DNA of 27,514 bases from a virus (IMGVR_UViG_3300021963_000534:1-27514); one strand, 5' to 3'; counted from the stretch's first letter, positions 1,777 through 24,827 are shown. The notes: generated by a model from the sequence alone, not told the origin. Translations and numbers: made by a program.

Positions 1777-1976
1777 AAGACGAGCAAGTTGAGATGGTGA
1801 AGTACCTTATCCACCATAAAAAGATGAAACACCAACGCATAGCAGATATGGTCGGGTGTTCAAGAGTCAATATTGTTAAAATCGGTAAAGGAACCCGATG
1901 GAAAGAAGTAACGACCCCCGATTTAATGAGAGGTGAATACCTATACCTAAAATACCTAAACGGAGAAATGAAATGA
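1758..1976 (+). CDS. Small helix-turn-helix DNA-binding protein
   Basis: This is a basic 72-residue protein. A helix-turn-helix is visible at about residues 9-42: LKDEQVEMVKYLIHH, then HQRIADMVGCSRVNIVKIGKG, the usual 'IA.M.G.S...V..I' pattern of invertase- or NUMOD-like HTH segments. It overlaps the end of the sigma-like gene by 19 nt and shares ATGA with the ParB-like gene, so translation is probably coupled. It may be an auxiliary repressor or activator of this operon. A DNA-targeting helper for the modification enzymes is an alternative that cannot be excluded. Confidence 0.65.
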   Translation: MAKQKLKDEQVEMVKYLIHHKKMKHQRIADMVGCSRVNIVKIGKGTRWKEVTTPDLMRGEYLYLKYLNGEMK

Positions 1977-2596
1977 AAGAAAGCACATTGTATAACGGAA
2001 TGATGAAAGTGGGGGATATTAAACCTAACCCTACTAACCCCCGAACTATTAAAAAGGAACAATTAGACAAACTTAAACGAAGTATTCAAGGGTTCCCTGA
2101 GATGTTATACCTTCGTCCTATTATTATCAACGAGGACAAGGTTATATTGGGGGGTAATATGAGATTGAGAGCCCTAAAGGAGTTAGGTATTACGGAGGTT
2201 CCGTATATCCAGGTAACAGACCTAACCCCCGAACAACAAAATGAGTTCATTGTAAAGGACAACCTCAACTACGGGGACTGGAATTGGGACTTGATAAGTC
2301 AAGATTGGAACCTTGACCACCTAAACGATTGGGGTTTAGATATACCGAAGTGGTTAAACGATGACGAAGTAGAACCCGAGTTTGACGAGGATATCAACCA
2401 CAAATACCTCCATACCTATATCAACTCAAAAGTTAAACAGATTGTAATGTTCCTATCAGCAGAACAATACGAGTCAGCCATTAAAGATATGGAAAGAATA
2501 ATGGAGAACGAGGGGTTAGAGTCCAACACTGAGGTTATCCTATTCCTATTAGAAAAATACTATGAAAAAGTTAGAACTTACACTAAAGAAGATTGA
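1973..2596 (+). CDS. ParB N-terminal-domain protein
   Basis: Residues 8-100 form a ParB/Srx-like domain. VGDIKPNPTNPR is the usual opening, LRPIIINEDKVILGGNMRLRALKELG carries the GGNxR signature (residues 60-64), and the EFIVKDNLNYGDWNWD stretch is common in phage and methyltransferase-linked ParB domains. The C-terminal part (about 150-200, KQIVMFLSAEQYESAIKDMERIM) is the helical tail seen in many phage members. Such domains bind nucleotides and nucleic acid, and some are nucleases. They are frequent neighbours of DNA-modifying enzymes. Here the gene overlaps the dioxygenase gene by 35 nt and opens the modification cassette. A role in guiding or licensing modification is inference. True plasmid-type partitioning is unlikely because no ParA is present. 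Confidence 0.8.
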   Translation: MKESTLYNGMMKVGDIKPNPTNPRTIKKEQLDKLKRSIQGFPEMLYLRPIIINEDKVILGGNMRLRALKELGITEVPYIQVTDLTPEQQNEFIVKDNLNYGDWNWDLISQDWNLDHLNDWGLDIPKWLNDDEVEPEFDEDINHKYLHTYINSKVKQIVMFLSAEQYESAIKDMERIMENEGLESNTEVILFLLEKYYEKVRTYTKED

Positions 2597-3467
2597 TAGA
2601 AACGACTATAAAAAGAGGACTGCGTTATTGACCGATGTAAAGGAGTTTGTAACGGAGGATACCCTTATTACTATAGACGGACAACCTGCGTTATTATACC
2701 TCAATCTAAAGGACGATACGAGTGCTTTGAGGTGGGCGGTAAAGAACCAAAAGTATCAAGCACACCGACGCTCCAACGGACTTAAACAAGAGTCCAACTT
2801 ATTTGGTTACACCCCCCGTATTACCTTCCGTCAAGATTATTGTACCATTACTGCGATGGCGGAGAAGTACCCGAAACAACACACCATTATCAGTTCCTTT
2901 ATTGAGAACATACACGGGTATTACCAAACCTACTTCCCCGATACCTACGAGAAACATAAGGATATCGTGGAGGAAAAGGTAATGACGGATTGGAAGATGG
3001 GGGACACTCCCTTTACCAGTGGTATCGTCAATAAGAATAATGCGTTGAAATACCATACCGACACCGGTAACTTTAAGGGTGTATTGAGTAATATGGTGGT
3101 ATTAAAGAAGGGGGTTAAAGGGGGTCATTTAGTAGTCCCCGAACTTGATAGAGCGTTTGAGTGTGCGGACAATACCCTTGTTATATTCAACGGACAAGAC
3201 CTTATTCACGGGGTTAGTCCTATAGAATATGAAGATGAAGGGTCATACCGATATAGTGTTGTTTATTATTCCCTTGAGAGTATGTGGAGATGCGAACCTT
3301 TAGGTGAGGAGATTAAACGAATACAGAAGGTAAAGACCAAAAGAGAACAGAAAAGGTTAGACCCCGAACACCTTGCTAAACTACAACAAGACGCAAATAA
3401 ACAAACCAAGGAAGCATTAGATGAACTTATAGGGTTTAAGGAAAAGATAGGAGTTAAAAATGTGTAG
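2562..3467 (+). CDS. TET/JBP-like 2-oxoglutarate Fe(II) dioxygenase
   Basis: This 301-residue protein carries a double-stranded beta-helix dioxygenase core. The metal triad is visible as H165-x-D167 (in KYHTDTGN) and H216 (in DLIHGVSPI). R230 (in SYRYSVVYY) is placed to bind 2-oxoglutarate. The strand GGHLVVPELDRAF and the N-terminal FGYTPRITFRQD segment fit the TET/JBP family, which hydroxylates the methyl group of 5-methylcytosine or thymine in DNA. The last 50 residues are a basic/acidic helix that may bind DNA. It overlaps its neighbours on both sides (35 nt and 8 nt). The gene order with an amino acid:DNA transferase and a DNA-base kinase supports base oxidation as the first step of hypermodification. 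The substrate base is not decided by the sequence. A generic prolyl-hydroxylase-like enzyme is the main alternative. Confidence 0.78.
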   Translation: MKKLELTLKKIDRNDYKKRTALLTDVKEFVTEDTLITIDGQPALLYLNLKDDTSALRWAVKNQKYQAHRRSNGLKQESNLFGYTPRITFRQDYCTITAMAEKYPKQHTIISSFIENIHGYYQTYFPDTYEKHKDIVEEKVMTDWKMGDTPFTSGIVNKNNALKYHTDTGNFKGVLSNMVVLKKGVKGGHLVVPELDRAFECADNTLVIFNGQDLIHGVSPIEYEDEGSYRYSVVYYSLESMWRCEPLGEEIKRIQKVKTKREQKRLDPEHLAKLQQDANKQTKEALDELIGFKEKIGVKNV

Positions 3468-4035
3468 TATTATAGGATATCATAGTAATACCCCCACTGA
3501 TGAACACCGATATATCATTAAAAAACTAATGAAAGAGTCGGTTATTAGGGGACAACACGCATACGGACTAACCTATAGGGATAGAAAACAATACCGACTC
3601 AAAAAATACTTCCAAGATGAGTATGAGAATATTGACTTCCCTATTACATCTCAACTGATATTCCATAGTAGATATTCTACAAGTGGGGATTTTAGGATAC
3701 ACGAAAACAACCAACCCCTTCAACACGGGGAAACTCACCTTGTATTCAACGGGGTTATTGATATGGGTGTTGAGTTTAATGATGGTATATTGGTTCTCAA
3801 TAACGGAACCCCCGATAAAATGTTGGAGTTCATCACCGGTAATAAGTGTTCATTCGCAGGATTGTTATTACACGGGGGTAAGTTATACGGATTTAGGAAC
3901 CCGAATAGACCTGCTTGGGTACTCAAGTATGAGGACGCAACCTTTATCGCATCAACCAAGGACATTTTCCATAGGGCTTTAGGTAATGTAGAACCCGTAG
4001 AAATGACCCCTAATGAACTTTATGTATGGCACTGA
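3460..4035 (+). CDS. Class II glutamine amidotransferase (Ntn hydrolase)
   Basis: The protein starts MCSIIGYHS, so Cys2 becomes the N-terminal nucleophile after Met removal. The other GATase II signatures follow in order: VIRGQHAYGLTY (R30-G31), FHSRYSTSGD (69-77), NNQP (83-86) and LVFNGVID (NG at 97-98), then ATFIASTKD near residue 160. At 191 residues it is only the glutaminase domain, with no synthetase or sugar-isomerase domain attached. It should release ammonia from glutamine for a partner enzyme. It overlaps the dioxygenase gene by 8 nt and the amino acid:DNA transferase gene by 10 nt, so those are the likely partners. Which acceptor receives the ammonia is inference. Confidence 0.85.
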   Translation: MCSIIGYHSNTPTDEHRYIIKKLMKESVIRGQHAYGLTYRDRKQYRLKKYFQDEYENIDFPITSQLIFHSRYSTSGDFRIHENNQPLQHGETHLVFNGVIDMGVEFNDGILVLNNGTPDKMLEFITGNKCSFAGLLLHGGKLYGFRNPNRPAWVLKYEDATFIASTKDIFHRALGNVEPVEMTPNELYVWH

Positions 4036-4901
4036 TAGATTACCTCAACTACCATAGGGATAGTTCCATAGCAAGGGATATAGACCCTGCTAACGACGCA
4101 CTAAAATATATCAGTGATAGGTTTGAGTTAAACCTACAACAGAGGTACTGGCTTGCGTGGATATACTCAATGACCTATTCACCGGTTACAACCTACTATA
4201 TCTACAATGAGTTCCCCGATTATGAGAATGTAGATGTCCCCCGATTACAGAGATGGTGGGATAAGAACCGAAACAACCTTATTTTTCAGACCGATAGACT
4301 GAGGGTAAAGTCAAATAACCAGTTCGTATCCGCATTTACTTCATATCGGGATATAGTAGGGGGGTCTCAATCTACCTACTTCCGTAGTTTAGTTCAACCT
4401 TCCCCCGATATTACCTATGAAAATGTAATGAAACACACCGGTAAGTTCTACACCTTCGGGAGATTTACACAATTTATCTACCTTGAGATGTTGAATGTAT
4501 TGACGGGGTTACCTTTAGAACCTACCACCCTCAAGTTGAAAGATGCGGAGAGTTGTAGAAACGGGTTAGTATATGCGTATGAACTGGATGAATACGATAC
4601 TCACCGAAAGGATAAGAAACTAACCCCCACTCAATTAAACTACTTACAAGGGTTATTCTTGGAGGTCAAGGATAAGGTACAAGAATTAGGGGTTCCTCAC
4701 TCCAACATATGGAATATAGAAACGACCCTATGTGCGTTTAAGAAACACCGATTAGGTAAAAGATATGTCGGGTATTACATAGAACGGAACCGACTTGAGT
4801 TAGAAAAGATGAGTGGGTCTGTTACCGAAGGTATAAATTGGAGTCCGTTATGGGACTTCCGTAAAGAAACATACGATAAGAAATGGTTAAACGAGTTGTA
4901 G
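4026..4901 (+). CDS. Amino acid:DNA transferase (aGPT-PPlase family)
   Basis: This 291-residue helical protein matches the alpha-glutamyl/putrescinyl thymine pyrophosphorylase family, also called amino acid:DNA transferases. Recognisable motifs are QQRYWLAWIYSMTYSPVTTYYIYNEFPD cut across residues 38-65, FGR at 144-146, Glu154, SCRNG at 176-180, IETTLCAFKK at 231-240 and RYVGYYIER at 246-254. Known members, from phages such as SP10 and phiW-14, replace the activated phosphate on 5-hydroxymethyl-dU in DNA with an amine or amino acid. The gene starts inside the end of the amidotransferase gene (10-nt overlap) and runs 19 nt into the kinase gene, an arrangement typical of a single pathway. The amine donor is not predictable from the sequence. 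Confidence 0.78.
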   Translation: MALIDYLNYHRDSSIARDIDPANDALKYISDRFELNLQQRYWLAWIYSMTYSPVTTYYIYNEFPDYENVDVPRLQRWWDKNRNNLIFQTDRLRVKSNNQFVSAFTSYRDIVGGSQSTYFRSLVQPSPDITYENVMKHTGKFYTFGRFTQFIYLEMLNVLTGLPLEPTTLKLKDAESCRNGLVYAYELDEYDTHRKDKKLTPTQLNYLQGLFLEVKDKVQELGVPHSNIWNIETTLCAFKKHRLGKRYVGYYIERNRLELEKMSGSVTEGINWSPLWDFRKETYDKKWLNEL

Positions 4902-5398
4902 CAGTCGGGGGAGAACCCGCAACTGGTAAAACGACCCTTATGAGAGAGTTTAAGAACCTTCATACGACAACCCCCTTCAAGTACGGACAAGTTAGGGGTG
5001 AGTATAATAAGGATTTGAACCTATATTTTATAGGGGTATTTGATGGTTCCACTTTTGAGGGGACGGATAGATTGAGTATGTCGGTTCAACCCGACTTTAT
5101 CAAGTTCCTAAACTGGTGTGAAGGTGTTGTAATATACGAAGGTGATAGATTATTCAACCAATCGTTATTCACTTTAGGGTTCCCCTTCGTTAAAGTTGTT
5201 CTAAAGGGAGATAAAAACCTTCTTGATATAAGACACAAAACAAGGGGGGATAGTCAAACTGAGACCTTCCTAAAGAGTAAGAGAACAAAAATAAACAATA
5301 TATTAGATAAGAACCCCGATGTGATAGTTCTAAATTGTGATACCCCTACGATTGAACTACTTGAGGTCTTAAAAAGATTAGTTAGAGATGTTGAATAA
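4883..5398 (+). CDS. P-loop DNA-base kinase (5-hydroxymethyl-dU kinase type)
   Basis: This 171-residue P-loop kinase has Walker A GGEPATGKTT at residues 9-18. It also shows the features I associate with phage 5-hydroxymethyl-dU DNA kinases: GVFDGSTFEGTDRLSM (51-66, with GTDRLSM) and VVIYEGDRLFN (82-92, with EGDRL as the Walker-B-like strand end). A lid-like basic stretch, IRHKTRGDSQTETF, follows. The enzyme should phosphorylate the hydroxymethyl group of the base in DNA, making the leaving group needed by the transferase encoded just before it. It overlaps that gene by 19 nt and the next by 11 nt. A nucleotide or polynucleotide kinase is the alternative, less likely given the neighbours. Confidence 0.78.
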   Translation: MVKRVVAVGGEPATGKTTLMREFKNLHTTTPFKYGQVRGEYNKDLNLYFIGVFDGSTFEGTDRLSMSVQPDFIKFLNWCEGVVIYEGDRLFNQSLFTLGFPFVKVVLKGDKNLLDIRHKTRGDSQTETFLKSKRTKINNILDKNPDVIVLNCDTPTIELLEVLKRLVRDVE

Positions 5399-5651
5399 AG
5401 AACAAACCGATTACATAAACCTTTTATCCCAAGTGATGGGGGTTGAGAGCATCGCAGTGGAACGCTCGGGTGTAAAAAAAGAAACCCTTGAGGAGTGGAA
5501 AGAGAATATCTTTTTCCTTCAGGCATTGAAGGGTGTTGAGGAACGACAACTTGACTATGTTGAGAATGCGTTGTTCCGTTTAATAAACGAAGGTAACATC
5601 AATGCCATTACCTTCTACTTAAAAACTAAAGGTAAAGATAGAGGATACTAA
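5388..5651 (+). CDS. Small HTH protein, terminase-small-subunit-like (phBC6A51 type)
   Basis: This 87-residue protein is mostly helical. Residues 12-40 form a homeodomain-like HTH (SQVMGVESIAVERSGVKKET). The C-terminal part, FRLINEGNINAITFYLKTKGKDRGY, matches the end of phage 'homeodomain phBC6A51' proteins, which occur just ahead of terminase genes. It overlaps the kinase gene by 11 nt. It may be a DNA-recognition partner of packaging, or the actual pac/cos binder alongside the protein at 5898. The assignment rests on the C-terminal pattern and location. Confidence 0.6.
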   Translation: MLNKEQTDYINLLSQVMGVESIAVERSGVKKETLEEWKENIFFLQALKGVEERQLDYVENALFRLINEGNINAITFYLKTKGKDRGY

Positions 5652-5898: not shown

Positions 5899-6335
5899 TG
5901 CCACAGAAAGCAGGACCTGGAAGACCTAAAGGGTCGGGTAAAGACAACGGATTTAAGTTATCCAAGATGACTAACGCAGAAGTGGAGGTATTTTTGAGGG
6001 AGAGTTCTAAAATAATCTTCAATAAACATTTATCCTTTACTGAATATATTGAGTGGTGTAGGAAACAAGACATCTCAAGGGAGCAAGCCATTCAATATTG
6101 GAAACGGGTATGGGACTCCGTGAAGGAAAGGTTCCGTATGGATAGGGATAAATTGATAGATAAACACCTTCAATCGTATTGGGACATTCACGGACAAGCA
6201 ATGATGAACGGGGACTTGACTAACGCAAGACAGACCTTGGATGCGATAGCAAAGTTGATGGGTCTAAATGAACCCGAAAAGATTGATATGAAGAGTTCAA
6301 CAACTATAGAGTTTAAGTTTGGAGACGAAGAATAA
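5898..6335 (+). CDS. Terminase small subunit-like protein
   Basis: This 145-residue protein directly precedes the terminase large subunit gene and overlaps it by 17 nt. Its N-terminus has an AT-hook-like basic patch (GPGRPKGSGK). Residues 25-100 are helical with an HTH-like part (ISREQAIQYWKRVWDSVKERF). The end (about 120-145) holds NEPEKIDMKSSTTIEFKFGDEE, a tail common in small terminase subunits ('..PEKiei......i.f'). The small subunit recognises the packaging site and hands DNA to the large subunit. Confidence comes mostly from position, size and this C-terminal pattern. Confidence 0.7.
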   Translation: MPQKAGPGRPKGSGKDNGFKLSKMTNAEVEVFLRESSKIIFNKHLSFTEYIEWCRKQDISREQAIQYWKRVWDSVKERFRMDRDKLIDKHLQSYWDIHGQAMMNGDLTNARQTLDAIAKLMGLNEPEKIDMKSSTTIEFKFGDEE

Positions 6336-7563
6336 CATCAAGGTTAAAGGATTTACCCCCCACGCTGACCAACGAGTCAAGATAGATGCGATAGAGCAAG
6401 GAAACGCAAAGTATATCGTTCTAACAACGGGTCGTCAGTGGGGGAAAACTATGCTTGCTCAGAACCTTATATTAAAGTGGGCAATAGAAACCCCGAACCA
6501 AACCTTGATGTGGGTCAGTCCGGTATATTCTCAAGCAAAGAAGGTATTTGATGCGTTGGATAAAGCAACGGCAGAGTCGGGGTTAGTAGTCAATTCTCAC
6601 AAGTCCAACTTCACCATCAAGTTTGTAAATGGTAGTATCATCTACTTTAAGTCGGGGGAAAGACCCGACAGCATTCGTGGTTTCACTTTAGATTACCTTA
6701 TTGTTGATGAGGCTGCGTTCCTAAAAGATGAGGTATGGAACCAAGTACTCAAACCTACGATTTTAGTGAAGGGTAAAAAGGTTCTGTTCATCTCAACACC
6801 GAAGGGTAAGAACTATTTGTATTCGTTATCAGTTAGGGGGAGTGATGATGAACAAGGACAATACCTATTCCTCAAGGGTAGTTCCTACGATACCCCCTTT
6901 ATTAGTGAGGACGAACTAAATGAAGCAAAGAGGTCATTACCGGAGGATATATTCCGTCAAGAGATTTTAGGTGAGTTTATAGATAGTGGGGGTGAGGTGT
7001 TTGTTGATATAGACCGATATTGTATTTTACCTTCCTACTCCCCCCGTGATATGAAAAAGAAGTATTGGGCAGGGGTAGATTTTGGACGACAAAATGACTA
7101 TTCGGTATTGACGATATTTGATGAGACCGGTAACCTCGTTTATTTTTATCGTGAGAGACAAAAACCTTGGGGTGAGATTATCAATACCATAGCAACAAAA
7201 CTCCGTGAATACGATGCTCAAGCACAAGTGGAAGTGAATAGTATTGGGGATGTCCTTTACGAGCAGTTAAAACAAAAGTATAGTAAGGTAGAACCCTTCG
7301 TAACAACCAACGCATCTAAACAAAATATCGTTGAGGATTTTATCTACGCAACTAATGAGGGGTTAGTCAAACTCCCGACTCAAGACCTAAACCCCCAACT
7401 TTATAGTGAGTTAAAAACCTTCACCTACGATTACTCACTCAAGACCCGTAAGATTACCTATGGTGCGATTGAAGGAGCCCACGATGATATTATTATGTCC
7501 CTTTGTATCGGGTATAATACCCTCAAGGAACGAAAGACGAAGGGGGTATATCACATATATTAA
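6319..7563 (+). CDS. terL: Terminase large subunit
   Basis: This is the ATP-driven DNA packaging motor with headful or site-specific nuclease. Walker A is TTGRQWGKT (36-44), Walker B LIVDEAAF (127-134), and the coupling motif STPKG (159-163). The RNase H-like nuclease domain begins at GVDFGRQNDYS (D254, D260) and closes with HDDIIMSL (388-395). At 414 residues it is at the short end of normal and looks complete. The start is TTG at 6319, overlapping the small subunit by 17 nt. No in-frame ATG precedes Walker A by a sensible distance, so translational coupling from the upstream gene is likely. It is the last gene of the operon that begins at 1273. Confidence 0.95.
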   Translation: METKNNIKVKGFTPHADQRVKIDAIEQGNAKYIVLTTGRQWGKTMLAQNLILKWAIETPNQTLMWVSPVYSQAKKVFDALDKATAESGLVVNSHKSNFTIKFVNGSIIYFKSGERPDSIRGFTLDYLIVDEAAFLKDEVWNQVLKPTILVKGKKVLFISTPKGKNYLYSLSVRGSDDEQGQYLFLKGSSYDTPFISEDELNEAKRSLPEDIFRQEILGEFIDSGGEVFVDIDRYCILPSYSPRDMKKKYWAGVDFGRQNDYSVLTIFDETGNLVYFYRERQKPWGEIINTIATKLREYDAQAQVEVNSIGDVLYEQLKQKYSKVEPFVTTNASKQNIVEDFIYATNEGLVKLPTQDLNPQLYSELKTFTYDYSLKTRKITYGAIEGAHDDIIMSLCIGYNTLKERKTKGVYHIY

Positions 7564-7590: not shown

Positions 7591-8360
7591 ATGGAGAAAC
7601 ACTACATCGTATATGATGGTAATGAATATGAGATTACAGAACCTACGATTGAGTTTTGGAACCGACTTGTGTTGTTAAAAGATTTGTATGAGGATAAGGA
7701 CTTTTCCCTTATGATAATCTCAATGGCAACGGGGTTGGATATTGATGAGATTAAAAAAGCAGATTGGGAAGGGGTGTATGAAACCTCAAACTATCTTGCG
7801 GACTACTTCCTAAACATCAGTGATAAGTTCTACAACACCTTTGAGTTCAAGGGTAAGAAGTATCAATTCATTGACCTTGAGAACCTAACCTTCGGGGAGT
7901 TCATAGATTTGGAGGAGTTTTTCAGCAGACCAGTAAGTAAAAAACAGACCGAACTAAACTATCTAATGGCACTCCTATATCGTGAGGTAGATGAGGACGG
8001 GAAACTAACCCCCTATGATGCGACGAAGGTAATGGAGAGAGCAACTTTGTTTAGAGCATTACCGATTAGATATATGAGGGGTGCGCAGCGTTTTTTTTTT
8101 CATTTAAGACGCATATTACAAGCAAGTACCCGCTCTTATTTTCACAAGAAGATGTACCAGATGAAGTGGAAACTACAAAAACTTTTGAGGGTTTTTGGGG
8201 TTGGTATGGAACACTTATATTTTTATCTGGTGAGGATATACTTAAAGTTCAAGAAGTGGCACGCAAAAACCTTCTTGAAGTCCTCAACTTTTTGACCTAT
8301 ATCAAGGACTTAAACCTAATGAAAGAAAGAGAACTTAAAAAACAACTACTAAAGGGATGA
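7591..8360 (+). CDS. Tail assembly chaperone-like protein, -1 frameshift at a T10 run
   Basis: Frame one runs from ATG 7591 and reads well up to RGAQRFFF (about residue 170), with segments such as KYQFIDLENLTFGEFIDLEEFF that I know from tail-chaperone-like proteins of Bacteroidota phages. After the run of ten T (8091-8100) this frame turns into basic, biased sequence ending at 8295. The -1 frame instead continues sensibly: SFKTHITSKYPLLFSQED, then FEGFWGWYGTLIFLSGED, and a helical end closing at 8360. Joined, they give a 256-residue protein. The -1 frame stop overlaps the next ATG (ATGA), which supports it being translated. The cause may be programmed slippage as in gpG/gpGT, a real mutation, or a homopolymer miscall. 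The position, right after the terminase and far from the tape measure gene, is unusual. Confidence 0.65.
8091..8100 (+). other. T10 slippery run (frameshift site)
   Basis: Ten consecutive T in the frame cgT TTT TTT TTT cat. A -1 slip on T TTT TTT keeps all pairing and moves the ribosome into the frame that is clearly coding downstream. Eleven or eight T would also restore a single frame, so a length error in the assembly is equally possible. Confidence 0.6.
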
Positions 8361-9658
8361 ACTATGTAAGTTTTAAGAATATTATTGAGGACTTAAAAAC
8401 CCTTGAACTCAAACATAAGCAGTTAAACTCCTTTGGTATCGGGGATATCAAACAACTGATATACCTAACTCAACAGAGGGACAAGCAGAATAACACGACT
8501 GCGTGGAAACCCCCGATTTATCCGTTGATGTATGTTATCCCTCAGAATGTTCAACAAGATGACAACTTTGTAACCTATCGTTTTAATGTCCTAATATTGG
8601 ATATTATGAACGCAAATAACTACGACATTGAAGTAGATTTATGGAGTTCAACCCTACAAATCGCACAAGATATCCTTGCTCAGTTCAAATATTCCGTAAC
8701 AATACAACAAGGGGACTACGAAGCAAGATACGATTTGGTATTACCGACTAATATAACTCCGTTTAGTGAGTCGTATGATGACATTTTAGTTGGTTGGAAC
8801 CTTGAACTACAACTCCAAGTTGATATGCCACTTGATAGATGTATCGCACCATTTGAACCTTTTGTTGAAATATCACCCACACCTACACCTTCGGTTACCG
8901 CTACACCAACAATGACCCCAAGTATTACACCTACGAATACTTCAACTCCAACTATGACCCCCACTACTACTCCAAGTACGACTCCTTCAGCGGTATGTCC
9001 TCAGAGTTTAATAGTAGGGGATTACTCAGTTGTTCCCGAACTAAACGGAACCTATGATAGAGTTTATCCCGGTGGATTTAGTTATGGTGTTATTGGATTC
9101 AACGGAACAACTTTTGAGTTTCAACAAGGTCAATACGGGGGTAGTTATTACCCGTTATTCGTCAATACAAGTCCCGGTGCTCCTTATTCCGCAACTACAC
9201 TTGCGTATGATACTTTAGAAGGTGCTTGGAATATATTTGAAGGGTCACCAGTTGATGGAACTTTAGGGACAAGTAGTTTCATTCCTTGGTCAACAAGTGT
9301 AATACCATTTACAGAAGGGGTAATAACCGCATCGTTCCCAAGTACTGGTTGGAAGGAAGAACTACTAAATCCAGGAACGGATTTATTTTATTTGACATAT
9401 CCTTCGGTTTGTCCTTCGGTAACCCCGACTACAACACCAACCAAGACCCCGACTCAAACACCAACGGGAACTCCTACGAATACCCCTACTCAAACTCAGA
9501 CTCAGACTCCAACTAATACTCCTACGGGAACTCCAACTAACACTCCTACACCAACTTTAACGCCAACACCTACGACCCCCGAAACATTCCATATTTTAAG
9601 TGAGGGAAGTGATGCTTTGACTACTGAAGGTGATGACAATATTGACTATCAAAACTAA
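8357..9658 (+). CDS. Tail protein with two Thr-Pro linkers and an added domain
   Basis: Residues 1-170 form a compact domain (YPLMYVIPQNV, FNVLILDIMNANNYDIEVDLWSS cut at about 85-107, ITPFSESYDDILVGWNLELQL) of a type common in Bacteroidota phage tails, possibly a tail terminator or completion protein. Then comes a Thr-Pro-rich linker (about 173-211), a beta-rich domain of about 140 residues with aromatic and Gly/Thr-rich strands (212-355), a second, longer Thr-Pro linker (about 354-408) and a short acidic end. The extra domain looks like a surface display module, and its two flanking linkers suggest it was inserted as a unit. The start shares ATGA with the frameshifted gene. The tail-terminator label is tentative. 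Confidence 0.6.
   Translation: MNYVSFKNIIEDLKTLELKHKQLNSFGIGDIKQLIYLTQQRDKQNNTTAWKPPIYPLMYVIPQNVQQDDNFVTYRFNVLILDIMNANNYDIEVDLWSSTLQIAQDILAQFKYSVTIQQGDYEARYDLVLPTNITPFSESYDDILVGWNLELQLQVDMPLDRCIAPFEPFVEISPTPTPSVTATPTMTPSITPTNTSTPTMTPTTTPSTTPSAVCPQSLIVGDYSVVPELNGTYDRVYPGGFSYGVIGFNGTTFEFQQGQYGGSYYPLFVNTSPGAPYSATTLAYDTLEGAWNIFEGSPVDGTLGTSSFIPWSTSVIPFTEGVITASFPSTGWKEELLNPGTDLFYLTYPSVCPSVTPTTTPTKTPTQTPTGTPTNTPTQTQTQTPTNTPTGTPTNTPTPTLTPTPTTPETFHILSEGSDALTTEGDDNIDYQN
8874..8990 (+). repeat. Thr-Pro linker repeat DNA, copy 1
   Basis: Imperfect 6-nt units based on ACN-CCN (Thr-Pro with Ser/Thr/Met variants) encode the first linker of the tail protein starting at 8357. The pattern is shared with 9415-9581, 16030-16083, 16269-16430 and 23468-23758. 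Confidence 0.8.
9415..9581 (+). repeat. Thr-Pro linker repeat DNA, copy 2
   Basis: A longer run of the same unit (TPT, TQT, TNT, TGT variants), including near-identical DNA stretches such as ACTCCTACGGGAACTCC. It encodes the second linker of the same protein. Confidence 0.85.
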
Positions 9659-11348: not shown

Positions 11349-13237
11349 TGAGTATTACATTTTATCAATCTCCTCTGTATTATACCCCCACTAATGCTCA
11401 ACACGCATACACGGTGGGTTCAACTTTATCTGGTAATACCGACTTTAGATATGTGGTTGATATTTGGATGAACCCAAGAGAAACCAACGCAGAAAAGATT
11501 GGTAGAATAAAGATTGCTCCCAACACCTTCGGGTATGGTATTTTTGATATCGGGGACATCGTTAAAAACTATATTAAACCTAACCCCCGTAGTGAAGCGG
11601 GTCAGAGGAGTCGTAATGCGACCCCCAATTCAGTTACCGGTGTTCCTGGTGCGATTATTACAAACTCTAATATCATATCTGCGGTGTCCCCTATAGGAAC
11701 GAACGCAGTTGCTTATGTTCCGTCTAACGCATTCAATACAAACAATACCTACGAGTATCTACCCCACATCGCAGAATATAGGATTATTGTAGGTGAGGAA
11801 TGGACTACAGCAACGGGTACTACAACGAATATTTGTACCGACCCTTCAGTTCCTTATTCCACGGTGGAGTTCGTAGCAACTACGGAACCCGTAGAATATC
11901 CGGGAGAACCTAATACGATTGAATGGACTAACCTTGCTGAGAACCCCGCTTGGGCTGTAACAAATAACCCCGGTTGGAGTTATCAACATATCAGTTATGG
12001 TGGAACAATAATATCAAGTGGAAGTGGGGATACTTCTAATGGTTCATTTTATACCTCAAGTGAAAGTCCCGTTCCTGGTGACTATCTTTATATTACCGAA
12101 CTCGCAACGGGTTGTATTACGACTTATCAGTGGGAATATGAGGTATCGGGTTGGGGTTTTGTAAGCACTTATTGTCCCCCTTGTTATACAAGTTTAGGGG
12201 ACTTCATAACGATTTGGCCTGGAGTTCAAGAAAACAAAACGAACTTCAACTATAACAACATCTACTGGTCGGGTAATACTAACGGGGACGAGAACTTCAA
12301 GTATTGGGAACTTTACAAATATAAGTTCTATCCCTTTACTGGTATTACGGAGTCGCAACCCGCTCAGTTTTTAACGACATTCGGTGATGAGTTATTTACC
12401 ACTACGATTGACCGATTTGGAACAAGTCAAACGACTGATAGGGCGAGACGCAGATGGCATCACCCCGAGTGTCCTATCGTGTTATCTAACTTTTTTAAGG
12501 ACTTTAACGACCAGTATGTAACCGGTAATGTCAATTCATTAGGGTTTAACTATTCTACAACTCAAGACGGGTCGTATCAAGTCCAAGCAATATCTGCGTT
12601 GTACCCCTACGGGAACTATGATACATCACCTAAAAATAGGATTGTATATTCGGTTCCGTTTAATAATACTTGGGCAGGGGGTAAAGCAGCATTTTGGAAC
12701 CAAACTCAAGGTAACATCGGTGACCCTACGCTCAGAATAAGTGAGGTGGTTGAATACTACTTTTGGGACGCAGATTGTTTAAGTGACCCGCAACACTTCC
12801 TTTTCCTCAACAGAAACGGGGTTTGGGACACATATACATTTGATAGGAAGAACATAAAAACCTTCGGTAAGGAAATATCCACCTATGGGCAAGGACTCAT
12901 TAGAAACAACCCTATTTACAACCCGTTCTTTTACGATAAAAGGGATGTAATCTACGACCAACAAGTCGTTGAGGAAGTGGAAGCACAGAGTAACTTTATG
13001 GTTGAGAATGACCGAAAAATTGTTGAGGATTTATTCTTATCTACTTCGGTATATCTTATCAAGGACAACTACTATTTTGGAGACCCCGCACCTCAATATA
13101 GTAAGACCCCGTATTTGATACCGGTGGTTATTGTATCTAACTCCCTTCAAGAGTATAAACAGAGGTATAATAAGTTGTTCCAATACACTCTGACCTATAG
13201 GTATAACCCGAACCAACTATTCCGTAGTAATCTGTAA
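11348..13237 (+). CDS. Large tail/baseplate protein (629 aa), unknown fold
   Basis: This is a beta-rich 629-residue structural protein with no catalytic motif. The N-terminal 110 residues (FYQSPLYYTPTNAQHAYTVGS, FGYGIFDIGDIVKNYIKPNP) are a type common in phages of Bacteroidota. Residues about 155-280 look like an insert of Ig-like strands rich in Thr/Ser/Gly, with several Cys. The C-terminal part has aromatic-rich beta segments and a helix near 540 (QQVVEEVEAQSNFMVEND). It sits between tail-completion and the 1141-residue protein, upstream of the tape measure gene, and is probably part of the tail tip. It shares TAATG with both neighbours. Confidence 0.65.
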   Translation: MSITFYQSPLYYTPTNAQHAYTVGSTLSGNTDFRYVVDIWMNPRETNAEKIGRIKIAPNTFGYGIFDIGDIVKNYIKPNPRSEAGQRSRNATPNSVTGVPGAIITNSNIISAVSPIGTNAVAYVPSNAFNTNNTYEYLPHIAEYRIIVGEEWTTATGTTTNICTDPSVPYSTVEFVATTEPVEYPGEPNTIEWTNLAENPAWAVTNNPGWSYQHISYGGTIISSGSGDTSNGSFYTSSESPVPGDYLYITELATGCITTYQWEYEVSGWGFVSTYCPPCYTSLGDFITIWPGVQENKTNFNYNNIYWSGNTNGDENFKYWELYKYKFYPFTGITESQPAQFLTTFGDELFTTTIDRFGTSQTTDRARRRWHHPECPIVLSNFFKDFNDQYVTGNVNSLGFNYSTTQDGSYQVQAISALYPYGNYDTSPKNRIVYSVPFNNTWAGGKAAFWNQTQGNIGDPTLRISEVVEYYFWDADCLSDPQHFLFLNRNGVWDTYTFDRKNIKTFGKEISTYGQGLIRNNPIYNPFFYDKRDVIYDQQVVEEVEAQSNFMVENDRKIVEDLFLSTSVYLIKDNYYFGDPAPQYSKTPYLIPVVIVSNSLQEYKQRYNKLFQYTLTYRYNPNQLFRSNL

Positions 13238-16200
13238 TGCTGTATTTAAGATGTGAAATAAATGGTGAGAAAAGGTATATTGACCTTTACCCTGACCAAA
13301 GTATATTCGCAGACTATTCGTTTGCGGAGATTGAGGATATTACCACTAAAAACTCCCCCTATACGAAGTCATTTAGTATCCCTGGTAGTAAGACCAACAA
13401 CGATATATTCCAACACTTCTACAACTTTAATATCGCACTGACGGATTATGATATTAGAAATGCGTTTGAAGCATCGTTTGAAGTAGATGGGTATGAGATT
13501 TTAACGGGGTATATTCGTCTTGAGAATGCGAATATCACTGTGACTGAGGTTGAATACAATGTAACCTTCTATTCTCAAGTCGGGTTATTGTCTGCTAACA
13601 TAGGGGACAAGGTGCTTCGGGATTTAAGTTTTTCGGGATTGTCCTACGGGTATAATCCAAGCATCGTATCCTCAACTTTATACGACCAAGATTTTCAGAG
13701 CACTCAAACTTCATTAGGAACAGAACTTATTTATATGCTTGCGAACTACGGATACGATTATGATGATGAGTTGAATATCATATCGGGTTCAACTCCTATC
13801 CTTGACTTTAGGAGTGCGAGCGTTCCGGGTTATTTTGACTACATTGGTAGTCCCGTTAGATATTACTATCTCAAGCCAGCGGTACAAGTAAAATGGATAT
13901 ATGAAAGAATATTCCGTGAAGCAGGTTATACCATCAACTCTGACTTCTTTAACACCGCATATTTTAAGAGGTTCTTTTTACCTTTTACCTTCTCAAGTGA
14001 TAGTTTATACCTAAACCAATCTTTAGTTCCGTTTTTCCATTGGAAAAATGACGAACGATTGACGAATAATATCAACACTCAAACAATTAACTGGACTAAC
14101 CTACCAACCGCAGTAACGACTCAGTTTGAAAGGGTACTTCAATTACCCGTTATTGTTGATAACATCAATGCTCATTTTTATTCTAACTATACCTTTGTTG
14201 TACCAGCAGAAGGGAACTATCAAATAAGGGTTACATTCGGTGGATTTAACCCCGAACCCTATGACCCCCCGTATTCAAACGGATTCAATGTTTCAGCAAG
14301 TATTCACTTCCACCAAGTTGAGCAAGGGGGACATAACGGAACTACGGGAACCACCGTGTTCTATTCGGGTGAAGTAGTAGTCCCTGCTGACCAAGCGTGG
14401 TTGCGTTCTTATACCTTCAATGCGTATTTAGCAACCAACTACGATTATGCCTTTGATGTTAAGGTCAATTCTGGTACCGTGGATGGTATCTTAAACTACG
14501 CAGAACTTGAAATACTTGACGGACCCAGATATGTTATTGGAGATGTAGATTTATCTAAAGAGTTACCCGAAACTGAAGGGTTACAGATTGACTTTATTAC
14601 GGGTATCAACAAGAGATTTAACCTTGTAGTTGTCCCCGAACCTGGTGAGAAAAATGTATTGAGGGTTGAACCCGTAGTAGATTTTATCGGGAAGGGTGAT
14701 GTATTGGATTGGAGTAGAAAAATTGACTACAATTCAACTATCAATATCCAACCTACAACCTCACTTATCAACGGAACCTACTATTTTTCCGGTGAGAAAG
14801 ATGAGGACTATGGTAATACGGAGTTTAATAAGACAACCAACAATATCTACGGGACTCAATATGTTCAGTTAAACACGGACTATAAGAGTTCTCAAACTGA
14901 GTTCAACGATGGATTTGCGAATGCTGTTGATGATATCCTACAAAATATCAGTAGTCCTAACATCACTATACCGATTTACTATATCACTCGTGAGGAGAAT
15001 AATGAGGGAACCCCCGAACTTTACTATAACGCAAGAAAAACGATACCCCGTATTGTCTTTAGGGGACTGAACCTACCCGCATTTAATGTCGGTTATTTTA
15101 GTTCATCGGGAAGTACCTATGTGAATTCATTTTATCTTGAGACCACGAATGTGGATATGTTCCCTATCTTCAACCGATTTACAACATACCCCTTCGGTCT
15201 AACTGGATTCACCCACGCAGTCAATTTTAACAAGCGTCAGAGGTTCAATAACTATGAATACGACTTTAGTTGTTATGAGGATTTATACGATGTCTATTAT
15301 GAGGACTATATCCAAGACCTAACCAACTCAGATAACCGAATATTGACGGGTATGTTCTACCTATTACCAGAGGAAATAGCAGCACTAAAAGGTAATGAAA
15401 GGATTTTTATATCGGGTAACTATTACCGAATAAATAAAATCGCAGCATTTGACCTAACCAGACCTGCTTTAGTGGAGGTGGAACTGGTCAAACTAACTAA
15501 AGAATATGAACCTCACCGAACCCGTTATTTTAAGTTAGTGAATTGTGCGAACCCCCTTGATGTTAAGTATGGTAATACGGACTTAAACTTTACCCTATGG
15601 GCATATGTCGGTAAAAGGTTCCGTATAGGTGCTGAATGTTATACGATTTTAAGGGACGATTATAGGGATAATGTTACCTACGAAAGATTTACAACCACCT
15701 TCCAATCGGGGTCGTTCCTACCTATGATATTCAACGATTGTACTTGTATATCCCCTATTATTGATGTTCAAGTTTATGATGAGTTAGGGTGTTCAGTTCC
15801 GTCTTCAACTCCTGCGGCGAGTCCTGGTGGAGAAGGATTTATCTATTATATCCTTGATAAGTGTGGTGAGCCTCAGCAGTTCTTGGGTCGTTCTACGATT
15901 TTATACCCTATCGGCACTGTGGTTAGATTGAGTAATGGATTCTGTTATGTTGTGACCTCTTATACAACGATTGTAAATACGAACGATATTGTTGCGTCTT
16001 ATGAAACTTGTGAAGAATGTCAAACGATAACTCCTACACCGACCCAAACCCCCACTGTGACCCCGACTTCAACACCACCTCCGTGTGAGTGTCTTGAATT
16101 CACCTTCTTTAATACTAACGATTACCAAGGCACTGTGGCGTTCGTAGATTGTTATGGAGTACAACAAATTAGGTATATCGGTGGTCGTCAATACCTCATT

Positions 16201-16662
16201 GAGTGTTTGTGTAGCGGAACTGAGGAACCAAGTGATGGTGTTGAGGTTATATCGGTAACTACTTGTACTCCTATCCCATCACAGACTCAAACACCTACCA
16301 ATACCAAGACCCCGACAACGACCCCAACGAAGACACCTACACCTTCGGTAACAAGAACACCAGGTCTATCACCAACGCAGACCCCAACTAATACCAAGAC
16401 CCCTACGCCCACACCTACGATATCACCGGGACAATACATTTACAATGTTAGAGAGGTGACGAATTGTACTACGGGAGCGGCTACGGGAGCAACTATTCGT
16501 GTGTCTTCCACTGTTCCACTTACAATAGGAACCTTCGTCAATCTTGACCTAACTCCTTCGGTATATTGTGCTTGGAAAGTCATTGCGGCGACCACGGGAA
16601 CTCCGTTTGATGAGGTGACTTACAACTGCGGAACATCACTACCAGTAAGTTGTTGTTGTTGA
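13237..16662 (+). CDS. Very large tail tip/baseplate protein with Thr-Pro linkers (1141 aa)
   Basis: The N-terminal 120 residues (LYLRCEINGEKRYIDLYPDQS, NSPYTKSFSIPGSKTNNDIF) are a conserved opening of Bacteroidota phage tail proteins and may form the hub. A long beta-rich body follows to about residue 925. The last 215 residues carry two Cys-rich small domains separated by Thr-Pro linkers (about 932-949 and 1011-1064). The protein ends in a striking cluster, PVSCCC, with further Cys in each domain, suggesting disulfide- or metal-stabilised surface knobs. It is the largest protein here and lies just upstream of the tape measure gene. Receptor contact by the C-terminal knobs is inference. Confidence 0.7.
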   Translation: MLYLRCEINGEKRYIDLYPDQSIFADYSFAEIEDITTKNSPYTKSFSIPGSKTNNDIFQHFYNFNIALTDYDIRNAFEASFEVDGYEILTGYIRLENANITVTEVEYNVTFYSQVGLLSANIGDKVLRDLSFSGLSYGYNPSIVSSTLYDQDFQSTQTSLGTELIYMLANYGYDYDDELNIISGSTPILDFRSASVPGYFDYIGSPVRYYYLKPAVQVKWIYERIFREAGYTINSDFFNTAYFKRFFLPFTFSSDSLYLNQSLVPFFHWKNDERLTNNINTQTINWTNLPTAVTTQFERVLQLPVIVDNINAHFYSNYTFVVPAEGNYQIRVTFGGFNPEPYDPPYSNGFNVSASIHFHQVEQGGHNGTTGTTVFYSGEVVVPADQAWLRSYTFNAYLATNYDYAFDVKVNSGTVDGILNYAELEILDGPRYVIGDVDLSKELPETEGLQIDFITGINKRFNLVVVPEPGEKNVLRVEPVVDFIGKGDVLDWSRKIDYNSTINIQPTTSLINGTYYFSGEKDEDYGNTEFNKTTNNIYGTQYVQLNTDYKSSQTEFNDGFANAVDDILQNISSPNITIPIYYITREENNEGTPELYYNARKTIPRIVFRGLNLPAFNVGYFSSSGSTYVNSFYLETTNVDMFPIFNRFTTYPFGLTGFTHAVNFNKRQRFNNYEYDFSCYEDLYDVYYEDYIQDLTNSDNRILTGMFYLLPEEIAALKGNERIFISGNYYRINKIAAFDLTRPALVEVELVKLTKEYEPHRTRYFKLVNCANPLDVKYGNTDLNFTLWAYVGKRFRIGAECYTILRDDYRDNVTYERFTTTFQSGSFLPMIFNDCTCISPIIDVQVYDELGCSVPSSTPAASPGGEGFIYYILDKCGEPQQFLGRSTILYPIGTVVRLSNGFCYVVTSYTTIVNTNDIVASYETCEECQTITPTPTQTPTVTPTSTPPPCECLEFTFFNTNDYQGTVAFVDCYGVQQIRYIGGRQYLIECLCSGTEEPSDGVEVISVTTCTPIPSQTQTPTNTKTPTTTPTKTPTPSVTRTPGLSPTQTPTNTKTPTPTPTISPGQYIYNVREVTNCTTGAATGATIRVSSTVPLTIGTFVNLDLTPSVYCAWKVIAATTGTPFDEVTYNCGTSLPVSCCC
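16030..16083 (+). repeat. Thr-Pro linker repeat DNA, copy 3
   Basis: A short run of ACN-CCN units joins the body of the 1141-residue protein to its first Cys-rich C-terminal domain. Confidence 0.75.
16269..16430 (+). repeat. Thr-Pro linker repeat DNA, copy 4
   Basis: A longer Thr-Pro run with Lys and Arg variants (TNTKTPT twice) lies before the terminal Cys-rich domain of the 1141-residue protein. It shares the unit ACNCCN with the other copies. Confidence 0.8.
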
Positions 16663-23030: not shown

Positions 23031-24827
23031 ATGTTTTTAGTTAAAAAAGGACAAACAAATACAATCTCAGTCTCAGTATCTTTAGATGCTACAATACCTA
23101 ACCCGTATTACTTATTTTCATTCGTTAATATTCTATCTAAAGAAACTATCAATTTTGTCCCTAAAAACATTACGAACGGAACCGAAGAACGATATGATGA
23201 GTTTGAGTTCGTTGAAGGGTCACCTACTAACTTATCTTTAGACCCACCTCAAGTCAATTTTACCTACGAAGGTCAATATTGGGTCTATATCTACGAACAA
23301 ACTGGTTCTACTAACACTCACATATCGGGTACAACGAGTATGTTGTATGACGGACGAGCACAAGTGGAAGACGATTGTCCAGCAACCGAACAATATTACG
23401 AATACATCAGTGATAATGAAGACAACCATAACTTCATTTTCCTTGCCTCAGACGAGGTTTGTGGTATCACGCCAACACCGAGTATCACCCCGTCAATTAC
23501 CCCGTCTATAACACCAACTAATACCCCTTCGGTAACCCCGACAAATACCCCCACGCAGACTCAAACCCCGACGCAAACATCAACACCGACTCCGTCTGTA
23601 ACAACAACGATGACCCCTACGGGAAGTCCTACACAAACTCCTACGGAAACCCCAACACAAACTCCTTCACACACACCAACGCAGACCCCAACTATAACCC
23701 CTACTAACACCTCAACACCAACTCCCACCTTGACCCCGACTCCCACCTCAAGTCCGGTCAATTTTGATGTTGGATATGGTTTTGGCGGTATTAATGTTCA
23801 GGCTGTGATGAACGATGCTGACGATATGTATTTTGGTGGTGCTTTTGACTATTTTAACGGATATGTTCAAGAAGCATTAGTAAAAACTGACTTGGTGGGT
23901 AATATTGATACATCATTTAATGCCCTTGTCCCTAATGGTACCGCAGTTTTCACCATCATAAATTATGATGCGAATAATCTTATTATTGGGGGTACATTTT
24001 CAACCTTAAACGGACTCAGTTGTGGTAGGATTGGTAAGGTGAGTAAGAGCACGGGAACTTTAGACCCTGTTTGGCAAAACTCAAATGCTCAAAGCACTAT
24101 TCAAGGTATATTGAAAGATGGGACAAATTTAATAATCGTAGGTAACTTTACTTCCTATAACGGAACATCAAGGGGTCGTATTGCTAAAGTCAGTGGTAAT
24201 AATGTTTTGGATACTACTATTTTTACGGGTGCTGGTTTTAATGCCAGTCCGTATGGTGTGATAAAGAACCTCGCAGGTAACTATATTGTATGGGGGGCTT
24301 TTACAACCTATAACGGAGCAACAGCAAACAGAATATGTGAATTAGACGGAACTACGGGAGCAAAAACCGCATTATTCGGTACTGGTGCTAACTCCAATGT
24401 ATCTCAAGTATTTCAAGATAGTTTAGGAAACTATTACCTAATAGGTAACCAGAGTTCATTAAATGGAGTAGGTGCTCAAAAATATATGAAAACCGATAGT
24501 TCGGGAACTATTTTATGGTCTTTGAGTACTGGTCCCGGTGTCGTACCTGCTGGTGGATTTTTAGACCAAACTAACGGATATCTGTATTGTAGTCCCCCAA
24601 ATGATGGTTGGTTTAGAATAAACATAACTACGGGACTCAGAGACACGACTTGGGATACTCAACAAGCACTTATTATAGCACCTGGAGGTGGTACTTTTAA
24701 TGTTCAAACAACCTACGACACTCAAGGTAAGTTATATCTACCAGGAACTTGTAACTACTTCCGTAACCAACCATTTAACCGATTGGTTGTGTTAGATAGT
24801 AGTGGAAACTTGAAGAGTTATGTATAA
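23031..24827 (+). CDS. Putative receptor-binding protein with Thr-Pro stalk and delta-60/propeller repeats
   Basis: The 598 residues fall into three parts. Residues 1-145 form a beta domain ([16 protein letters not shown] at the start) that probably attaches to the virion. Residues about 146-242 are a long Thr-Pro stalk. Residues about 245-598 hold six or seven repeats of about 45-50 residues with the core GG-x-F-x-x-(Y/L)-N-G followed by R-I-x-K-V and D-x-x-G, for example [20 protein letters not shown] and [19 protein letters not shown]. This is the delta-60 repeat pattern of beta-propeller-like domains. The plan (base, stalk, propeller) suits a receptor- or glycan-binding spike. It has its own terminator-bounded unit between tube and portal. 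The repeats are clear in the sequence, but the receptor function is inferred. Confidence 0.7.
23468..23758 (+). repeat. Thr-Pro linker repeat DNA, copy 5 (longest)
   Basis: About 290 nt of imperfect ACN-CCN repeats encode an almost 100-residue Thr-Pro stalk. The reverse strand reads as Val/Gly repeats with no stop, which is a by-product of the repeat and not a gene. Confidence 0.9.

Follow-up and report, generated by a model that had tools for sequence, protein, structure and literature searches.

What might five overlapping phage genes, among them a free-standing glutamine amidotransferase, do to phage DNA? The genes lie at 1973-5398 of the window, the whole 27,514-base IMG/VR virus record IMGVR_UViG_3300021963_000534, which holds mostly tailed-phage structural genes (terminase, tape measure, portal and protease). 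On the plus strand they encode a ParB/Srx-domain protein with a GGNMR motif (1973-2596, 207 aa), the first gene of the conserved cassette; a TET/JBP-family 2-oxoglutarate/Fe(II) dioxygenase (2562-3467, 301 aa); a class II (N-terminal Cys) glutamine amidotransferase (GAT; 3460-4035, 191 aa); an ADDT/aGPT-Pplase family transferase (4026-4901, 291 aa); and a P-loop kinase with the Walker A motif GGEPATGKTT (4883-5398, 171 aa). An initial annotation, made from the sequence alone, had claimed five overlapping genes here; all the open reading frames (ORFs) are present, neighbours overlap by 8-35 bp, and the motifs it named in the dioxygenase, amidotransferase, transferase and kinase are real and conserved in family alignments. 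It had also proposed a metavirome search for the same gene set, and since dozens of further virus contigs carry the same set (their loci have L numbers below), the cassette is not a chance arrangement. The reading that we favour, with confidence slightly better than even, is a post-replicative hypermodification of phage DNA, most likely of thymine, in which TET, the kinase and a GAT-fed ADDT would produce 5-aminomethyluracil (5-aminomethyl-U).

The profile searches and structure predictions suggested with that annotation agreed with its gene assignments: ParB_N, Tet_JBP and ADDT scored over their cut-offs, the GAT and kinase became firm once relatives were added, and structure prediction, run on these last two, matched glutaminase and P-loop kinase folds. 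For the window GAT alone, the match to GATase_6 was weak (0.0059, below the cut-off). Of the GAT family, whose model was built on domain envelopes, 32 of 33 members matched GATase_6 (best 2.5e-12), and the 33-sequence profile retrieved from the PDB the glutaminase domains of PurF (1ao0, 1.8e-9) and GlmS (1xff, 3.8e-7); a four-sequence profile gave no PDB match. The AF2 model of the GAT (pLDDT 95.9) had PurF and GlmS as its best Foldseek matches (2.4e-9) and also matched EgtC (E 2.1e-7). The catalytic columns C2 (32/33), R71, N97-G98 and D108 are conserved in the family alignment, and the GAT has the Cys after Met1, the Arg, the Asn-Gly oxyanion hole, the Asp and the N-terminal nucleophile (Ntn) fold of a class II amidotransferase. 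The window protein is about 15 residues shorter ahead of the conserved Asn-Asp and keeps the motif. Like it, PurF and GlmS have the N-terminal Cys, Arg, Asn-Gly and Asp of a class II glutaminase domain, whereas the window GAT is a separate 191-aa protein whose predicted acceptor is a DNA base. In PurF, pyrophosphate is displaced by a domain that receives NH3 from the glutaminase domain, and the same logic, glutaminase-fed NH3 displacing a leaving phosphate group, is what we propose for the GAT and ADDT: the GAT is predicted to be a glutaminase delivering NH3 to the transferase. One relative (L075, 9196-9981) has its Cys2, motif Arg and the Asn of the NG replaced (MSG, HYSTSG and FDG), although it still lies beside an ADDT and a kinase; judged by its residues, it is probably inactive.

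The initial annotation was right that a GATase is present. What goes beyond it is that the GAT is an obligate partner of the ADDT, and that close relatives carry a GNAT gene between the two. After duplicate removal the set held 95 distinct GAT genes, and in every one of the 90 with more than 1.2 kb of downstream sequence an ADDT gene followed close downstream on the same strand. The pairing also holds in the set found by searching with the GAT alone, for which the best 80 of at least 561 relatives were kept, the top scorers of a larger family. GAT and ADDT stay neighbours even where the order of genes, the type of kinase, TET or GNAT differs, as in the orders ParB-TET-GAT-GNAT-ADDT-kinase, ParB-kinase-GAT-ADDT-TET and ParB-GAT-ADDT-kinase-TET. 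Among 93 GAT-ADDT pairs, 48 had no recognised gene between them and 45 had a GNAT acetyltransferase, an arrangement that supports an amine product. At one locus (L072, 2-1459) GAT and ADDT are joined in one frame as a single ORF of 485 aa, with the 5' end of the GAT cut by the contig start; a search with this fused ORF found no second fusion, its other match (L083) being separate genes. Some apparently GAT-less loci were artefacts of a non-overlap ORF filter. In the ADDT tree the rows with a GAT form large clades, but because three changes are needed and the outgroup branches are very long, we claim no single origin of the partnership.

The GNAT gene is absent from the window and from its neighbour L001. 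The window and L002 are 87% identical in DNA here, and their alignment breaks exactly at the L002 GNAT gene (about 400 bp; window 4026-4036 versus L002 3063-3473), which indicates a clean gain or loss. So precise a presence or absence between such similar phages suggests that closely related phages can differ in their final base. In one other cassette (L059), a gene resembling low-molecular-weight phosphatases (LMWPc, 6e-6) separates GNAT from GAT at 4565-5086.

The transferase matched PF18724 at 3.2e-16 (60.2 bits against a cut-off of 26.2) and aGPT-Pplase3 at 7e-6, and PF18724 was matched by all 38 ADDT relatives. Its motifs IETTLC..KK and R.VGYYIER are conserved in the family alignment, and weak profile matches were obtained to the solved AADT 25qc and glycinyltransferase 8z2m. 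The ADDT search returned 56 loci, and the protein is homologous to a ViI-like phage protein over 96% of its length. The ADDT is predicted to displace the phosphate of a phosphorylated hydroxymethyl base by an amine, with ammonia as the predicted nucleophile.

A P-loop kinase fold is encoded next to the ADDT. Taken alone the kinase was weakly matched (PF18751 0.1; PHROG 2.7e-8). Its family is Ploopntkinase3: PF18751 was matched by 17 of 30 alignment members (best 8.2e-73), residues G10/G15/K16, G60TD and EGDR are conserved, and the window kinase had no match to Pfam HMUDK up to E 1. The AF2 model (pLDDT 93.6) had P-loop kinases as its top Foldseek matches (probability 1.00, E 1.3e-5), with a fold resembling the hCINAP/Fap7 adenylate kinases and NRK1. 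The kinase is predicted to act on a 5-hydroxymethyl base in DNA, and may work like a 5-hydroxymethyldeoxyuridine (5-hmdU) DNA kinase though it stands outside the Pfam HMUDK families.

Upstream, the ParB protein matched Pfam ParB_N (8.9e-7, over the curated cut-off) and, down to 5e-26 in PHROG, families of ParB-like type as well as phrog_498, which bears the name DNA methyltransferase. Its gene was found in nearly all relatives with room upstream, and its role is possibly DNA targeting. The dioxygenase matched Tet_JBP (PF12851) at 4.9e-12, with 45.8 bits against a curated cut-off of 34.9, and weakly matched CMD1 (7cy4). The iron ligands H165xD167 and H216 and the 2-oxoglutarate-binding R230 are invariant in 22 of 22 aligned sequences, and the enzyme is predicted to oxidise the 5-methyl of thymine (or of 5-methylcytosine, 5mC) in DNA to hydroxymethyl. 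Among phrog_6059, phrog_800 and the annotations of Coopervirus phages, three names look wrong: queuine tRNA-ribosyltransferase for the TET family, terminase small subunit for a family that the kinase matches, and DNA glycosylase for the ADDT. The 22 loci of the TET search split into two groups. L001-L004 keep GAT, ADDT and kinase, whereas L005-L022 retain TET, and also ParB if the contig extends to it, without those three genes. The TET is thus a hub with a changing tailoring module. In three loci read in detail (L020-L022), other genes, mostly of glycosyltransferase type, lie between ParB and TET, and two genes, in L022 and L020, matched the Pfam TET-associated glycosyltransferase (TAGT) family. 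These TAGT cassettes resemble the window in having a TET 56-62% identical, after ParB and before terminase, but have glycosyltransferase-type genes instead of GAT-ADDT-kinase, so that the tailoring module of close TET relatives seems to exchange amine for sugar. The glycosyltransferase-type regions are L020 7769-9988, L021 6691-7596 and L022 9288-10004; L020 holds another two genes with no clear Pfam assignment, and the L021 gene has no Pfam match.

The set ParB-TET-ADDT-kinase is already known from cultured actinophages. Rhodococcus phage Tonitrus (PP978825) was described in 2025 as having a five-gene thymine hypermodification system (PMC11955845). As in the window, genes for ParB-like, TET/J-binding-like, aGPT-Pplase2 (ADDT family) and kinase proteins stand in a row upstream of terminase; the two differ in that Tonitrus has other small genes, a transferase 20% identical and no GAT detected beside it. 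Mycobacteriophage Hangman and other Coopervirus phages likewise have ParB-TET-ADDT-kinase, in that order, immediately before terminase, but neither GAT nor GNAT beside the transferase, and their TET and ADDT are 33% and 27% identical. Phages M6, ViI and phiW-14 (5-NedU, 5-NeOmdU and putrescinyl-T) are thought to use 5hmdU, a 5hmdU DNA kinase and then amine transferases (Flodman 2019, PMC6449724). They share with the window a kinase step followed by an amine or amino acid transferase, and in one ViI-like phage a homologue of the ADDT is encoded close to a P-loop kinase; in contrast to the predicted action of the window TET on DNA, their 5-hmdU is believed to arise at the nucleotide level, before the polymerase incorporates it. 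We know of no GATase in systems of this type. An ADDT-linked GAT was found in none of 50,697 phage records at the sensitivity used, and the computational survey of Iyer et al. 2013, from which these families stem, may already mention the amidotransferase. The best GAT matches, in LUZ24/tf/Zobellviridae phages (four records opened), belong to a different system, with amidotransferases of ~475-530 aa beside amidoligase and ATP-grasp genes; the remaining matches are to the same Pseudomonas phage group by name. The unusual element is the GAT partnered with the ADDT, in a variant of known thymine hypermodification.

In the pathway that we propose, TET would convert the 5-methyl of T in polymerised DNA to 5-hydroxymethyl (5-hydroxymethyluracil, 5-hmU), and the P-loop kinase would place a phosphate or pyrophosphate on this hydroxymethyl. 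The GAT would hydrolyse glutamine and hand the ammonia to its partner ADDT, which would displace the phosphate to give 5-aminomethyl-U in DNA. Relatives with a GNAT between the two genes would acylate the amine to an N-acyl form; the window and L001 would stop at the free amine. For the more specific proposal, that a GAT-ADDT complex channels ammonia onto a phosphorylated 5-hydroxymethylpyrimidine in DNA so that 5-aminomethyl bases form in a single step and an exchangeable GNAT converts them to N-acyl forms, we put the chances at about even. The oxidise, phosphorylate and displace-by-amine logic of the initial annotation thus gains support, together with the gene identities, from homology, structure models and conserved neighbourhood, while the base, the order of the reactions, ammonia as nucleophile, the product and a protective role are what we infer. 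Its suggestion of a base not yet described may not hold for the window itself: the product may be the known 5-aminomethyldeoxyuridine (5-aminomethyl-dU; 5-NmdU in the title of one 2024 paper), reached by another route.

Thymine is the likelier substrate, on several lines of evidence. In L072-L074 the GAT-ADDT pair is accompanied by members of the Pfam 5-hmdU DNA kinase families (2e-24, 5e-33) and, in place of TET, by a thymidylate synthase (TS)-family enzyme, an arrangement that points to 5-hmU as the common intermediate. TS was matched only in L074 of 31 records; these are fragments, and the search overlooked a TS gene in L072 that hmmscan detects. A C5-cytosine methyltransferase, a candidate source of the substrate, was found in none of 30 records of 11-51 kb carrying the genes, the control being positive in 10 of 14 genomes. 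Thymine is further favoured by Tonitrus, whose system, sharing this core, has been called thymine hypermodification (PMC11955845), and by the homology of the ADDT to a ViI-like phage protein, since ViI has hypermodified thymine (PMC6449724). The L072-L074 pairing, the methyltransferase search and the Tonitrus description make it improbable that the substrate is 5mC, oxidised by TET to 5-hydroxymethylcytosine (5hmC), phosphorylated and aminated to a 5-aminomethylcytosine-type base, although the closest TET homologues with another module do adjoin TAGT glycosyltransferases. Also in favour of 5mC, phage TET enzymes reportedly act on 5mC made by phage methyltransferases (Burke et al. 2021).

We consider it similarly doubtful that the ADDT transfers an intact amino acid, on the model of ViI and M6, with the GAT as an EgtC-like Ntn hydrolase acting later or aside to trim a Gln- or Glu-derived adduct. 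EgtC cleaves a gamma-glutamyl amide, and the match of the GAT model to it, the stand-alone domain that both have, the amino acid transfer in the Pfam name of the transferase family and the existence of GAT-less ADDTs would all suit such a role; but the best structure and sequence matches of the GAT are the ammonia-feeding glutaminase domains of PurF and GlmS, and adjacency everywhere, with one single-frame case, suits substrate channelling. Far less probable still is a remnant, inactive or of some different purpose in nucleotide metabolism, in a phage with unmodified virion DNA: the L075 GAT without its catalytic Cys, Arg and Asn fits this, whereas the catalytic motifs of the window are all intact and conservation is strong, at 30-93% identity across dozens of contigs. 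Several points weigh against the thymine pathway with ammonia as nucleophile. The GAT could have another substrate. Characterised homologues of the ADDT work with no GATase, using whole amino acids or putrescine, and ADDTs with no adjacent GAT occur in Hangman, Tonitrus, ViI-like phages, L157 and L158, the last two with a radical SAM enzyme and GNAT; such ADDTs are compatible with a split between ammonia-using and amino-acid-using forms. The single-frame GAT-ADDT is one truncated case (L072). The argument for thymine over cytosine uses a TS-family enzyme whose dUMP versus dCMP specificity is assumed, and the absence of a methyltransferase from fragmentary, possibly incomplete records is no proof. 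TAGT family genes also sit beside close TET relatives; the family is presumably linked to 5mC/5hmC chemistry, and the TAGT-linked TET relatives may act on 5mC.

Glutamine amidotransferase chemistry is known for sugars and nucleotides, and to our knowledge not for polymeric DNA. If the proposed pathway is correct, a two-protein amidotransferase would place an amine from glutamine directly on DNA bases. This would shorten the route to an aminomethyl base able to carry further groups, which would serve phages as a defence against restriction and could be used to label DNA. At least 561 matching stretches occur in uncultivated phages, and GNAT, glycosyltransferase and radical SAM modules swap around the same core, which suggests a fast-changing set of DNA disguises.

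In most relatives the cassette lies directly upstream of the packaging genes. A helix-turn-helix protein, probably the terminase small subunit (5388-5651, plus strand; PHROG 3.6e-6), is kept downstream of the cassette in relatives and serves as a context marker outside the chemistry; the terminase large subunit follows at 6319-7563 (plus strand; Terminase_6N 2.1e-20, phrog_2 2.4e-52). Because the pathway would act on polymerised DNA and adjoins terminase, modification shortly before packaging is plausible. Bacteroidota and Selenomonadaceae metagenome-assembled genome contigs (L153 5505-11156, L157 2949-7261 and L158 6257-10650) encode a radical SAM protein together with ParB, ADDT, kinase and GNAT. 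In L153 a GAT is present too, as is a gene for S-adenosylmethionine synthetase, whose product perhaps feeds the radical SAM step. Long Thr-Pro repeats (TPTPT...) occur in three genes of the structural region of the window (8357-9658, 13237-16662 and 23031-24827).

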